This document shows, in pieces, positions 1 to 5,149 of a stretch of 37,506 nucleotides of DNA. The notes beneath the pieces are model-generated. The model saw nothing but the letters and a program-made list of their open reading frames with translations. It was not told where the DNA came from and did not search any database. The stretch comes from Pelagibacteraceae bacterium AG-426-I15 (GTDB lineage: Bacteria; Pseudomonadota; Alphaproteobacteria; Pelagibacterales; Pelagibacteraceae). The position numbers were made by a program, and so were the translations under genes. The stretch covers positions 1 to 37,506 of the forward strand of contig QCNT01000007.1 of the NCBI GenBank assembly GCA_003213135.1, given 5' to 3'. Numbering within the stretch: position 1 is the first letter of the stretch; each line of letters starts with the position of its first letter.

Positions 1-2817
1 TATTATTTGGAAAAAGAAATGTACGAAGCCCATGACGCCCTTACCTGTATTGGTCAAAAAACTTATGTTGAAGACAAAAAGAGAAAAAAATTCTCAACGG
101 AACATTATATAAAAAGCAATGAAGAGATAACTAATATTTACAAAGATCTTCCAGAGGCATTAGAAAATAACTTTCTTTTTCCTTTTAGATTTAGTTATAA
201 ACCGAAGAAATCCGAACCTGTTTTGCCATCTATAAAAATATCAAATGGTCTAAGTGAGTCAGAGGAACTATTAAATTTATCAAAGGAAGGCCTTAAAAAT
301 AGGATCGAAAATTTTATTTTAAAAAAAAATCCGCAAATTAATAAATCTAAAATTGAAAAAATTTACCTTGATAGATTGATGCATGAAATTAAAATTATTA
401 ATGAAATGAAATATGCCGGATATTTCTTAATTGTATCTGATTATATAAAATGGGCAAAACAAAATAATATTCCGGTTGGTCCGGGCAGAGGATCGGGAGC
501 CGGATCTTTAGTGGCTTATTCATTAGATATTACCGATCTTGACCCGATAGAATTTGATTTGATTTTCGAAAGATTTCTTAATCCTGATAGAATTTCAATG
601 CCTGACTTTGACATTGATTTTTGTGAAGAAAAAAGAGATTTAGTTTTTAAATACTTAAGATCTAAATACAAGAGTGGGGTAGCACACATTATTACTTTTG
701 GAAAACTTAAAGCACGTATGGCTTTAAGAGATGTAGGTAGAGTAATTGGCTTGCCTTACGGACATGTAGATAAAATATGTAAAATGATACCATTCGATCC
801 CTCAAGACCATTAACTTTACAGGAGTCAATTGCAAGGGAGCCAAGAATAAAAGAAGAAGAAAAAAACAACCCTAAAGTAAAAAAATTAATTGAATTATCT
901 CTAAAACTAGAAGGTTTGAATAGAAATCTAGCAACTCACGCTGCCGGTGTCGTAATTGCTGGAGAAAAATTATCAGAACAAGTTCCACTTTATAGAGACA
1001 AAAGTTCAGATTTGCTTTTACCATCAACACAGTTTGATATGCACTCATCAGAAAATGCAGGATTAGTTAAATTTGATATTTTAGGATTGAATACCTTAAC
1101 TGTCATCCACAAGACAGTTCAAATGTTAAAAATTAAGAAAATTAATTTAGATATAAACAAAATACCTTTAAATGATCCAGAAATTTTCAATCTATTATCA
1201 ACTGGAGAAACTACAGGATTGTTTCAATTAGAAAGTTCAGGCGTAAGAATTGCTTTAAAACAAATGCAACCGAATAGGTTTGAGGATATCATAGCTCTTG
1301 TTGCACTATATAGGCCTGGCCCTATGAACAATATTCCTATTTACAATGATTGTAAAAATGGTCTAAAAAAACCTGACTATATACACGAAAGTTTAGAAAA
1401 AATTCTAAAACCAACATATGGAATCATAATTTACCAAGAACAAGTTATGCAAATCGCCCAAGTTTTAGCAGGTTTTACTGCGGGAGAGGCGGATATTTTA
1501 AGAAAAGCGATGGGAAAAAAGAAAAGGAAAGAACTTGAAAAACAAGAGGAAAAATTTATCAAGGGAGCTATAAACAATGGAATTAAGAAAGATATCGCTT
1601 CATTTATTTTCCAAAAAATTAAACCATTTGCCGAATACGGATTTAACAAAAGTCATGCGGCAGCTTACGCATTAATTGCTTATCAAACAGCCTATCTTAA
1701 ACATTATCATAAAGAGGATTTTATAGCTGCCACCATGACCACAGAACGTTCAAATACAGATAAGCTGAGAGAATTTGTTCAAGAATTGAAACGCCTCAAG
1801 ATAGAAATACAAAGACCTAATATAAACAAGTGTTACTCAGATTTTAAAGCAGATAAAGGAAAGATATATTATGCACTTTCAGGCATCAAAAGTGTTGGTC
1901 ACGAAGCAGTATCTAACATAGTAAAAGAAAGACAAAAAAATGGATCATATAAATCTTTAGAAGATTTTATAAGAAGAACCAACCCCAAGAATATTAACAA
2001 GCTACAATTAGAAGGCTTAGTAAAAGCAGGTGCTTTTGATGAACTATATAATAACAGAAGATCATTATTTGACTCTATACCAAAAATAATTCAAATTAAT
2101 AAAAGTTTGTGGGAAGAAAAAAATAGCAAACAGAACAATCTTTTTCAGAACAGCGCTGATAAAAATGATGACTTAATTAATATAGAAAATAAAGAAAATT
2201 GGGAAAATAATGAAATACTTATGCATGAATTTCAATCAATTGGTTTTTACATGTCTGATCATCCCCTAAAAGTATACAAAACTTACTTAAAAGAGTCTAA
2301 AATTTTGCCATTTAATGATTTTATGAATAGTCAGAACAACAGCGCGGTAGTTGCTGGAACAATTATGTCTATTCAAGAAAAAAAAAGTATAAAAGGCAAT
2401 CCTTTCGCAATTATTAAATTTAGTGATTTAGAAGGTGAATTTGAGCTTTTTTTATTTTCTGATTTGTTGATTCAAAAAAGAAACGAGCTCAAAGCTGCTG
2501 AATCTTTTATTTTAACTCTTCAGAAAGACTCTTCTTCTAACGGATCAGAAACAAAACGTATAAATATAAAAAAAATAATCAATATTGATGATATTATGAA
2601 TAAAACACATGAAAATGTGACCATCGAACTTAAAGACAAATCATCTTTTGATCAGCTAAAGGATCTTCTCAAAGAAAGCGGTAATACAAAGGTTAAAATT
2701 AAAATTGGTGACACATCAAAAACTTACATATTTGAGCTCAAAAACCCAAGAAAATTCAATTTTAAAACTTTTAACGCTATAAAAGACAAAGATTTCATCA
2801 AAAAAATAAGCTTTTAA
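1..2817 (+). CDS. dnaE: DNA polymerase III alpha subunit, 5' end cut by window
   Basis: Replicative polymerase catalytic subunit. The frame is open to the first base of the window, so about 938 codons are present and roughly the first 200 residues (most of the PHP domain) are missing; the TTG at position 7 is only an internal codon. The polymerase active-site motif PDFDIDF is encoded at 601-621 and the glycine-rich segment GPGRGSGAGS precedes it. Further on are the finger region (LYRPGPMNNIP), a helix-hairpin-helix segment (LEDFIRRTNPKNINKL) and an OB-fold segment near the C-terminus (AVVAGTIMSIQEKKS). The length and motifs fit the DnaE1 type rather than the ImuB-associated DnaE2. The gene ends in a TAA 112 bp before rpsB; that gap contains a promoter, so rpsB need not depend on dnaE transcription. 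Confidence 0.97.
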   Translation, partial: YYLEKEMYEAHDALTCIGQKTYVEDKKRKKFSTEHYIKSNEEITNIYKDLPEALENNFLFPFRFSYKPKKSEPVLPSIKISNGLSESEELLNLSKEGLKNRIENFILKKNPQINKSKIEKIYLDRLMHEIKIINEMKYAGYFLIVSDYIKWAKQNNIPVGPGRGSGAGSLVAYSLDITDLDPIEFDLIFERFLNPDRISMPDFDIDFCEEKRDLVFKYLRSKYKSGVAHIITFGKLKARMALRDVGRVIGLPYGHVDKICKMIPFDPSRPLTLQESIAREPRIKEEEKNNPKVKKLIELSLKLEGLNRNLATHAAGVVIAGEKLSEQVPLYRDKSSDLLLPSTQFDMHSSENAGLVKFDILGLNTLTVIHKTVQMLKIKKINLDINKIPLNDPEIFNLLSTGETTGLFQLESSGVRIALKQMQPNRFEDIIALVALYRPGPMNNIPIYNDCKNGLKKPDYIHESLEKILKPTYGIIIYQEQVMQIAQVLAGFTAGEADILRKAMGKKKRKELEKQEEKFIKGAINNGIKKDIASFIFQKIKPFAEYGFNKSHAAAYALIAYQTAYLKHYHKEDFIAATMTTERSNTDKLREFVQELKRLKIEIQRPNINKCYSDFKADKGKIYYALSGIKSVGHEAVSNIVKERQKNGSYKSLEDFIRRTNPKNINKLQLEGLVKAGAFDELYNNRRSLFDSIPKIIQINKSLWEEKNSKQNNLFQNSADKNDDLINIENKENWENNEILMHEFQSIGFYMSDHPLKVYKTYLKESKILPFNDFMNSQNNSAVVAGTIMSIQEKKSIKGNPFAIIKFSDLEGEFELFLFSDLLIQKRNELKAAESFILTLQKDSSSNGSETKRINIKKIINIDDIMNKTHENVTIELKDKSSFDQLKDLLKESGNTKVKIKIGDTSKTYIFELKNPRKFNFKTFNAIKDKDFIKKISF

Positions 2818-2821
2818 CATC

Positions 2822-2850
2822 TTGATTTTTTTTTAAATAGAAAGTATCTA
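2822..2850 (+). promoter_or_regulatory. Probable sigma-70 promoter for rpsB
   Basis: TTGATT at 2822-2827 and TATCTA at 2845-2850 are separated by 17 bp, a near-canonical -35/-10 pair just after the dnaE stop codon. It would start transcription near 2857 and give a leader of about 73 nt before the rpsB ATG. In such AT-rich DNA promoter-like pairs are common by chance. The location directly before a structured leader is what supports the call. Confidence 0.4.
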
Positions 2851-2856
2851 CTAGTT

Positions 2857-2929
2857 AATTTCGCACACAGTATTGGGTATACGCCCACCGGTCCGAAAGG
2901 AAAACTGTGGAGGTAAAACCGGAAAAATT
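2857..2929 (+). promoter_or_regulatory. rpsB (ribosomal protein S2) leader RNA with pseudoknot
   Basis: This stretch is clearly richer in G and C than its surroundings and can fold. CCAC (2885-2888) pairs with GTGG (2907-2910). Inside that loop CC-GAAA-GG (2893-2900) forms a GNRA-type mini-hairpin. CGGT (2889-2892) pairs with ACCG (2918-2921) downstream, giving an H-type pseudoknot. GGAGGT (2909-2914), a Shine-Dalgarno-like element, overlaps the first stem and lies 15 nt before the ATG, so the fold could control ribosome access. A structured element upstream of the S2 gene was described in Candidatus Pelagibacter ubique and marine metagenomes. Autoregulation by S2 is the likely role but is inferred here. 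Confidence 0.75.
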
Positions 2930-3715
2930 ATGAACGTACCAAGTGTATCTATAAAACAATTACTTGAAGCCGGAGTTCATCTTGGCCACAAAACTCTAAG
3001 ATGGAATCCAAAAATGAAAAACTTTATATTTGGCGAAAAAGATTCCATTCATATACTAGATCTTACACAAACAGTCACATTAATTAAAAAAGCATTAACG
3101 GAAGTTCACAAATGTATTTCAAGTGGTGGAAAAATTCTAATTGTTTCAACAAAAAAACAAGCTTCAGAAACTGTTTTAAAAGTTGCTGCGGAAACTGGGC
3201 AATTTTACGTGAACTATAGATGGCTTGGCGGAATGTTAACTAATTGGAAAACAATCCAAAATTCGATAAAAAGATTAAAAAAACTAGAACAAGATTTATC
3301 AAAAGAAGATATTGGTTTCACAAAAAAAGAAATTCTTAAACTTGGTAAAGAAAAAGATAAACTAAAAAGATCTCTTGGTGGAATTTCCGATATGAAAAAG
3401 GTACCTGATATGCTTTTTGTAATTGATACTAATGTAGAATCATTAGCGATTAAAGAAGCGGTAAAATTGGGTATACCTATTGCAGCAGTTTTAGACTCAA
3501 ATTCCAATCCTGAAGGTATAAGCTTTCCTATACCGGGAAATGACGATGCTAGAAGATCAATAAATCTTTATTGTGAATTATTAAAAGAAACTATTGTAGA
3601 TGCTAAAAAATACATAGCAAAAGAAAAAGTTGAGGACAAAAAAAACAATAACTCTGAAGAAACAAAGCCAAAAAAAGAAGCACAAAGTAAAAAGAAAAAT
3701 TCAGAAAAGAATTAA
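2930..3715 (+). CDS. rpsB: 30S ribosomal protein S2
   Basis: Component of the small ribosomal subunit, 261 aa. Family hallmarks are visible: the N-terminal LLEAGVHLGHKT segment, WNPKMKNFIFGE, the central WLGGMLTNWKT motif, and PDMLFVIDTNVE. The ATG at 2930 is chosen over an in-frame TTG at 2873 because the extra 19 codons would lie inside the structured leader and match nothing typical of S2. The C-terminal 30 or so residues are a Lys/Glu-rich tail of low complexity. It is followed after 18 bp by tsf, the usual partner, and is probably regulated through the leader RNA upstream. Confidence 0.97.
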   Translation: MNVPSVSIKQLLEAGVHLGHKTLRWNPKMKNFIFGEKDSIHILDLTQTVTLIKKALTEVHKCISSGGKILIVSTKKQASETVLKVAAETGQFYVNYRWLGGMLTNWKTIQNSIKRLKKLEQDLSKEDIGFTKKEILKLGKEKDKLKRSLGGISDMKKVPDMLFVIDTNVESLAIKEAVKLGIPIAAVLDSNSNPEGISFPIPGNDDARRSINLYCELLKETIVDAKKYIAKEKVEDKKNNNSEETKPKKEAQSKKKNSEKN

Positions 3716-3733: not shown

Positions 3734-4585
3734 ATGTCTAAAGATAAAATGCTAGAAAATGTAAAAAAATTGAGAGAAATCACTGGCGTTGGTTTTAAGG
3801 ATTGTAAATTAGCATTAGATGAAAATAATGGTGATATTGAAAAATCTATTGATTATCTGAGAAAAAAAGGAATTGCAAAAGCTTCAAAAAAGATGAGCCG
3901 TACAGCCGCAGACGGTTTAGTGTTAGTTTGTGAAAAAGATAATGAAATGTCAGCACTAGAAATAAATAGCGAAACAGATTTTGTTGCAAAAAATAAAGAT
4001 TTCATTAATTTTTGTAAAGAAGTTTCTGAGATAAATTTTAAAAATAAGGGTAGTCTCGAAAAAACAAAATCGTATTTAATGAAAAACAATAAATCAGTTG
4101 ATGAAAATTTAATAAATCTCATAACGAAAATTGGCGAAAAAATAACAATAAGAAGAAGTAAATTTTTTGATAAAAGTGGAAGTAATTTTAGTTATGTTCA
4201 TAATTCTTTAGAAAAAAATGTAGGAAAAGTGGTTTCAATTATTAAAATCAATGGTGGCAAACAACAAGATTTAAAGGATATCGGATCTAAACTAGCAATG
4301 CACGTCGCTGCCTCAGCTCCAATTGCAATTGAAAAAAATGGAATAGAAAAAAGTATTTTAGATAAAGAAATCGAAATTATTAAAGAAGAATTAAAAAATA
4401 GCGGAAAGAAAGAAGAAATGATTGATAAAATTTCTCAAGGAAAATTAAATAAGTTTATATCGGACAATACACTTTTAAATCAGATTTGGATAATGGATCC
4501 TAAAAAAAAAGTTAAAGATATTCTTAAAACCGATATAACAGTTATTGACTTCGTTCGTTTTAAAGTCGGAGAGGGCGTTGATTAA
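3734..4585 (+). CDS. tsf: Translation elongation factor Ts
   Basis: Guanine-nucleotide exchange factor for EF-Tu, 283 aa. The N-terminal UBA-like domain is seen in VKKLREITGVGFKDCKLAL, with the next helix ending in IDYLRKKGIAKASKK. The conserved core motif that contacts EF-Tu appears as SETDFVAKNKDF. The second half of the dimerisation core includes AMHVAASAPIAI. It follows rpsB as in most bacteria. The next gene is frr after only 3 bp, whereas most alphaproteobacteria have pyrH in between. Confidence 0.97.
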   Translation: MSKDKMLENVKKLREITGVGFKDCKLALDENNGDIEKSIDYLRKKGIAKASKKMSRTAADGLVLVCEKDNEMSALEINSETDFVAKNKDFINFCKEVSEINFKNKGSLEKTKSYLMKNNKSVDENLINLITKIGEKITIRRSKFFDKSGSNFSYVHNSLEKNVGKVVSIIKINGGKQQDLKDIGSKLAMHVAASAPIAIEKNGIEKSILDKEIEIIKEELKNSGKKEEMIDKISQGKLNKFISDNTLLNQIWIMDPKKKVKDILKTDITVIDFVRFKVGEGVD

Positions 4586-4588
4586 AAA

Positions 4589-5149
4589 ATGAGTGATACA
4601 TACGATAAAAATGATATTATAAATAAGATGGACAAGTCCCTTGCGGCATTTAAAAAAGATTTAACTTCAATTAGAACTGGAAGAGCAAACCCGGCTATGC
4701 TTGATTTAATTTCTGTTGAAACATATGGAAAGAGAATGCCAATAAACCAATTAGCAACAGTTACTGTTCCAGAAGCAAGATCAATATCAATTCAGGTTTG
4801 GGATAAGTCAAATGTAACATTAATTGATAGCGCAATAAAAAAATCAAATTTAGGTATTAACCCACAAATTGATGGGCAAATTCTTAGAATTCATATTCCA
4901 CAATTAACTGAAGAGAGAAGAGTAGAATTAGTAAAATCATTAAATGGGTTGGGAGAAAAAGGAAAAGTTTCTATTAGAAATATTAGAAGAGATTCTAATG
5001 ATTTAATAAAAAATCTCTTAAAAGAAAAAAAAATTAGTGAAGACGAAAGCAAAAATTATGAAAAAGAAATACAAAAAACCACTGATATTAATATTGAAAA
5101 GATAGATAAAATTTTAGCAGATAAAGAAAAAGAAATACTTAACCAATGA
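4589..5149 (+). CDS. frr: Ribosome recycling factor
   Basis: Releases mRNA and splits post-termination ribosomes together with EF-G. The 186 aa length is exactly that usual for the family. Typical segments are LTSIRTGRANPAMLD near residue 25, the hinge region around YGKRMPINQLATVTVPEAR, and the C-terminal helical part with RVELVKSLNGLGEKGKVSIRN. Its last four bases overlap the start of uppS (ATGA), suggesting translational coupling into the envelope-lipid genes. Confidence 0.97.
   Translation: MSDTYDKNDIINKMDKSLAAFKKDLTSIRTGRANPAMLDLISVETYGKRMPINQLATVTVPEARSISIQVWDKSNVTLIDSAIKKSNLGINPQIDGQILRIHIPQLTEERRVELVKSLNGLGEKGKVSIRNIRRDSNDLIKNLLKEKKISEDESKNYEKEIQKTTDINIEKIDKILADKEKEILNQ

Follow-up and report, generated by a model that had tools for sequence, protein, structure and literature searches.

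The rpsB motif (Rfam family RF01815) was first described in 'Candidatus Pelagibacter ubique' by Meyer et al. (2009; PMC2704228). As set out in the text of that paper, the published fold consists of the helices P1, P2 and P3 and of a pseudoknot in which J2-3 pairs with a 3' extension following P1, and the 'Candidatus P. ubique' version has a P2 of 3 bp and a P3 of 2 bp (PMC2704228). An rpsB RNA was reported in alpha proteobacterium HIMB5 in a later study (PMC6429828). The other system used for comparison is the rpsB-tsf operator of Escherichia coli (tff/t44, RF00127), where ribosomal protein uS2 together with bS1 is reported to repress rpsB-tsf through the leader (PMC10931766). The same source says that this operator excludes the ribosome-binding site, describes the mechanism as unclear, and indicates that deleting a conserved bulge located far upstream of the ribosome-binding site may abolish regulation by uS2 (PMC10931766).

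We analyzed a stretch of 37,506 nucleotides from Pelagibacteraceae bacterium AG-426-I15 (contig QCNT01000007.1), to which we refer as the window. We hold with high confidence that the segment immediately upstream of rpsB in this window represents the rpsB motif in its SAR11 form and constitutes a cis-acting leader on the rpsB-tsf mRNA, through which S2 would exert feedback. The leader is a member of an already published family, found in the clade in which that family was discovered. It shares with RF01815 the gene it precedes, the arrangement of P1, P2 and a candidate P3 and the pseudoknot between J2-3 and the 3' extension; the differences are only in detail, namely a P2 of up to 5 bp and a score below the Rfam gathering cut-off. 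In effect, this cut-off hides the leader in the very clade of its discovery, so that it will escape standard annotation of these very abundant marine bacteria. Our analysis also extends the published motif by approximately 150 SAR11 sequences, in which compensatory changes are clear.

Genomic setting and detection of the leader

The features of the locus are as follows.

2817: stop codon of dnaE, the upstream neighbour of the leader (open reading frame; gene name read from its translation)
2822 to 2850, forward strand: candidate rpsB promoter, TTGATT (2822-2827) and the AT-rich hexamer TATCTA (2845-2850), 17 nt apart
2862 to 2922, forward strand: rpsB leader RNA, whole structured core (RF01815 and the held-out SAR11 model R1)
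2930 to 3715, forward strand: rpsB, ribosomal protein uS2 (open reading frame named from its sequence and the RF01815 context)
3734 to 4585, forward strand: open reading frame which we take, from its protein sequence, to be tsf, elongation factor Ts, the second gene of the operon

The gap between dnaE and rpsB amounts to 112 bases; the leader RNA sits inside it and directly precedes rpsB, which starts at 2930. The same gene order, dnaE followed by rpsB, is listed for 'Candidatus P. ubique' in the table of Meyer et al. (PMC2704228). Together with the gene content, this neighbourhood suggests that the window belongs to the SAR11 clade. The TTGATT/TATCTA pair, placed between the dnaE stop and the leader, is a probable if weak candidate for the rpsB promoter; a sigma-70 consensus scan did not include it among its listed sites, which leaves the assignment weak. 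A TTGA is found 33-46 nt upstream of P1 in 86 of 154 SAR11 loci, compared to 27 of 154 on the reverse strand. Because TTGATT lies between dnaE and the leader and TTGA occurs at a like distance in these 86 loci, the 5' end of the leader is probably near 2857. Downstream of the operon, tsf is followed immediately (4585-4589) by an open reading frame that reads as frr, and pyrH, whose usual place is between tsf and frr, is absent there. The cut-off of the pyrH model TIGR02075 is reached by none of 60 SAR11-family genomes and by 10 of 14 control genomes, and weaker partial matches to it are present in 57 of the 60, mostly in longer open reading frames of 370-425 aa.

Rfam models applied at their gathering scores have no match anywhere in the window. 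When 2750-3050 was scanned at a permissive threshold, RF01815 came out on top (25.7 bits, E 0.0025, 2862-2938), with a match that covers the whole model. An Rfam scan had been proposed along with the original prediction, and its outcome is thus divided between the right family as best match and a score short of the gathering score of 40 bits, which is a curator's cut-off and not a biological feature. The window shares this shortfall with its relatives: none of the 197 SAR11-family genomes reaches the RF01815 gathering score, nor does any of 147 genomes sampled from the order, as opposed to 73 of 289 sampled from the class. A held-out covariance model, R1, was constructed from 40 SAR11 leaders, none of them from the window's genus. 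It matches the window at 2862-2932 with 59.2 bits (E 6.5e-12), and the runner-up match in the whole genome scores 15.9 bits. Among the 31 genomes of the window's genus that were searched, matches of at least 54 bits occur in all 18 in which S2 was found; the other 13 comprise 12 without a match and one (G136) with a weak match of 24.6 bits. The latter, at C4:16103-16185, may represent a chance match, a relic or a copy at the edge of a contig. The 13 genomes in which S2 was not found have a stated completeness of 59-82%, and the gene is probably on missing contigs.

The comparative analysis relies on S2-like proteins, identified in 155 of the 197 SAR11-family genomes, and on 157 SAR11 leader loci. 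A search pattern combining GGNGG, CCGG and a start codon matches 155 of the 157 loci; in the two that fail, the leader is present by eye, one having a changed pseudoknot base and the other a TTG start. Covariation was counted in a non-circular set, an alignment of 153 distinct SAR11 leaders built from sequence alone. A second, position-parsed set holds 139 distinct SAR11 leaders and 67 from other alphaproteobacteria, and its P1 counts are partly circular, rows having been admitted at 4 or more of 5 P1 pairs. On the SAR11 side, it leaves out L101, L112 and L113 of 159 loci, for which the parser failed on an A opposite G at the bulge; on the other side, 70 loci were fetched and L171, L175 and L185 were not parsed. 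The 67 include two leaders (L228 and L229) from the same order but another family, which also lack a Shine-Dalgarno (SD) site. For some genomes there were two retrievals (for example, L018 and L058); identical sequences were counted only once. P2 and P3 were counted by position because MAFFT misaligns them between genera, which makes its values of 50% and 28% paired unusable.

Helices and pseudoknot

The elements of the leader, all on the forward strand, are listed below.

2862 to 2870, forward strand: P1, 5' strand, C2862 G2863 C2864, bulged A2865 and CACAG (2866-2870); covariation
2874 to 2887, forward strand: P2, hairpin UGGGU-AUAC-GCCCA; minimum-energy fold
2888 to 2892, forward strand: J2-3, 5' strand of the pseudoknot, CCGGU; invariant in 153 of 153 SAR11 rows
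2893 to 2900, forward strand: P3, CC-GAAA-GG, 2 bp; sequence
2905 to 2909, forward strand: P1, 3' strand, CUGUG; covariation
2909 to 2913, forward strand: GGNGG element, GGAGG here; conserved and SD-like by sequence
2918 to 2922, forward strand: 3' strand of the pseudoknot, ACCGG, with its end 7 nt upstream of the start codon

P1 covaries strongly. Across the 153 distinct SAR11 rows, CACAG and CUGUG are paired in 756 of 765 alignment cells, 48 of which are double changes, compared to 10-75% paired and 0-18 double changes in controls where the partner was slid by 1-3 bases. The pair 2868/2907 alone occurs as C-G, A-U, G-C, G-U and U-A. In a separate alignment of 40 rows, where P1 and the pseudoknot were taken together, there are 30 double-change cells, all of them in P1; the shuffled mean is 7.1 and none of 500 shuffles is as high. 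Judging from these compensatory changes, P1 is the helix that closes the element and encloses P2 and P3.

At the foot of P1, G2909 of the GGAGG pairs with C2866, G2910 with C2864 and G2912 with C2862, while A2911 faces G2863 and G2913 is unpaired. C2862, C2864, A2865, G2909, G2910, G2912 and G2913 are invariant in 153 of 153 SAR11 rows. Position 2911 is U in 132 rows, A in 18 and C in 3; the opposite base, 2863, is mostly G, and the oppositions in SAR11 are often mismatched (G-A, U-C, A-A). In other alphaproteobacteria the two positions are mostly A-A, G-A or A-C, and a standard pair is found in 6 of 67. C-N-C-A and GGNGG thus make up a single conserved unit, in which an unconstrained opposition lies between two invariant C-G pairs and an A is bulged. 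A natural variant of P1, GAGGAAA/UUUCCUC, occurs in genus g7 (L101, L112, L113), where the A that is usually bulged faces G.

The pseudoknot consists of 5 bp formed by CCGGU (2888-2892) with ACCGG (2918-2922), just 3' of P1. Its CGGT/ACCG portion is paired in 594 of 612 cells over the 153 SAR11 rows, the unpaired cells arising from a slip of the alignment in 9 rows whose linker is longer by one base; likewise, 4 rows with a longer linker in the 40-row alignment break two pseudoknot pairs by misalignment. When read without the slip, the complete pseudoknot is present in 138 of 139 distinct SAR11 leaders, the remaining row having lost an end pair, and in 67 of 67 leaders from other alphaproteobacteria. 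Since CCGGU/ACCGG is otherwise invariant in SAR11, there is no covariation of the pseudoknot within the clade. Its support comes from other lineages, where both strands have changed: three of the 67 leaders (L192, L222, L225) carry U-A where the second pair is otherwise C-G, and E. coli has GGGGU with ACCCC in the same position.

P2 and P3 are more variable. P2 is 4 bp or longer in 97 of 139 distinct SAR11 leaders (mean 43.9 for shuffled segments), and the same pair appears as G-C, C-G, A-U or U-A in different leaders. P3 reaches 4 bp or more in 26 of 139 leaders compared to 23.8 for shuffled ones, so that it is short or variable and beyond its first two pairs approximately at chance level.

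Shine-Dalgarno sites and the Escherichia coli operator

The E. coli operator segment, CACACACGUAUC...GAUACGUGGAGGCAUAACCCC, shares with the SAR11 leader the end of P1 with its bulged A and GGAGG, and the two leaders have GUGGAGG...UAACC in common. On a 501-base stretch of E. coli, the SAR11 model has its best match at the rpsB operator with a weak 12.3 bits. The t44 RNA model (RF00127), with which E. coli scores 83.5 bits, has no match at 2750-3050 up to E 10. We would guess that the bulge whose deletion may abolish regulation in E. coli is the same as that of A2865 at the foot of P1.

The original prediction took GGAGGT (2909-2914), which lies 15 nt from the ATG at 2930, as a ribosome-binding site hidden by the fold. 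The distance, and the overlap of this hexamer with a GTGG, were correctly given, whereas the role assigned to it has to be discarded. GGNGG is a part of the RNA with a variable N, most often U (132 of 153 rows), and in the E. coli homologue the last G of GUGGAGG is 33 nt before the AUG, which is too far for that GGAGG to be the SD site. In E. coli, a distinct SD-like GAGG is found closer to the AUG, and 24 nt lie between pseudoknot and AUG; the window has 7 nt (AAAAATT) and no SD site.

We counted SD sites as any of the four 4-mers AAGG, AGGA, GGAG and GAGG. An SD-like 4-mer is found between the pseudoknot and the start codon in 58 of the 67 leaders from other alphaproteobacteria, a count that is if anything low because some starts were cut too early (for example, L191). 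It is absent from 134 of 139 distinct SAR11 leaders, and all five that have one belong to genus g9. The spacer from pseudoknot to start codon is mostly 6-8 nt in SAR11 and mostly 14-18 nt in other alphaproteobacteria. Loss of the SD site at rpsB fits a general trend better than a change particular to this gene, since SD-like 4-mers are scarce before the other open reading frames of the window (11 of 39 in the usual place compared to 6 of 39 at a control position). The term "Shine-Dalgarno" does not occur in the main text of Meyer et al. (PMC2704228), and in searches of the literature on SAR11 SD sites and rpsB leaders we recognised no report of SD loss after the pseudoknot. We offer this loss as a modest new detail, and solely as a hypothesis. 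It sets the SAR11 leader apart in a concrete and testable way from the E. coli operator, the mechanism of which has been called unclear.

Alternative readings and possible regulation

The original prediction proposed an H-type pseudoknot in which CCAC (2885-2888) with GTGG (2907-2910) interlocks with CGGT (2889-2892) and ACCG (2918-2921), concealing GGAGGT as an SD site. All of these letters are where they were said to be, this single sequence allows Watson-Crick pairing throughout both stems, and the general claim of a structured S2 leader with a pseudoknot near the start codon, as in 'Candidatus P. ubique' (PMC2704228), is borne out by the RF01815 match and the conserved fold. The CGGT/ACCG stem also survives as part of the genuine 5-bp pseudoknot, being conserved and having partner changes across lineages. 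The other stem does not: CCAC/GTGG can form in full in 53 of 139 distinct SAR11 leaders and in 1 of the 67 others, 58 of 152 SAR11 rows have a standard third pair (2887/2908), and the stem has no double changes compared to 48 for CACAG/CUGUG of P1, with whose 3' strand its own 3' strand overlaps, so that both cannot form. The supposed SD site, furthermore, reads GGUGG in most relatives. The conserved fold instead has P1 around P2 and P3 plus the J2-3 pseudoknot, and we regard the two-stem fold as very improbable, the comparison having refuted it. Stem pairs of this interlocking kind appear in 562 of 2000 dinucleotide shuffles of the segment, and therefore the two stems alone are no more than its composition gives; of 3744 tiles of 73 nt across the AT-rich window, 21 contain a pair of interlocking 4-bp stems that each have 3 or more G/C. 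The nested minimum-energy fold (-16 kcal/mol, z 0.26) is ordinary as well. We consequently rejected stem counting and fold energy as evidence, neither being above chance. It is conservation as seen in the alignments, not stems alone, that lifts the leader above chance. The unremarkable fold energy and the promoter-like TTGATT just upstream would agree with a segment that has no RNA function at all and is a conserved promoter or chance GC-rich DNA; this we consider extremely improbable, and refuted by covariation, in view of P1 compensatory changes far above the shuffled and slid controls and of a leader preceding rpsB in all 157 SAR11 loci (155 by pattern, two by eye).

An alternative that accepts the RNA is that it does not sense S2 and is either a constitutive translation element, at which bS1 or the 30S subunit would land on an mRNA lacking an SD site, or a sensor of another ligand. 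The near absence of an SD site after the pseudoknot in SAR11 means that the leader could help in loading, the scarcity of SD-like 4-mers across the window points in the same direction, and the literature consulted describes no S2 experiment for the SAR11 clade. However, the same architecture precedes rpsB in alphaproteobacteria that do have an SD site, and uS2 reportedly represses the E. coli leader, with its shared GUGGAGG...UAACC and pseudoknot position (PMC10931766). We judge this alternative unlikely, and by analogy with E. coli the leader RNA is probably a feedback switch for S2.

As a feedback switch, the leader could be expected to work as follows. uS2 present in excess over 30S subunits would bind the leader RNA, probably together with bS1 as in E. 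coli; a bS1 is encoded in the genome by a 577-aa open reading frame with six S1 domains. Bound uS2 would stabilise P1 and the pseudoknot, and the stabilised pseudoknot, 7 nt before the AUG, would keep the 30S subunit off the start codon, which would lower S2 and, through coupling, EF-Ts. Control at the level of translation is favoured because no terminator-like hairpin is found in 2700-3000; transcription attenuation was rejected for the same reason. In SAR11, blocking of the 30S subunit would be direct, since the pseudoknot occupies the usual position of the SD helix. Tentatively, the SAR11 leader may have become fused with the initiation site, the separate SD site having gone, the spacer having shrunk and the regulatory pseudoknot having taken the place of the SD helix, such that S2 feedback acts on an SD-independent start. 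This is a possibility to which we give distinctly less than even weight; if true, S2 feedback in SAR11 would be exerted directly and not at a distance as in E. coli. In one SAR11-family genus, g9 (L031, L035, L036, L059, L134, L137), an AAGGA is retained downstream of the pseudoknot, and the P1 element reads GGAGG.
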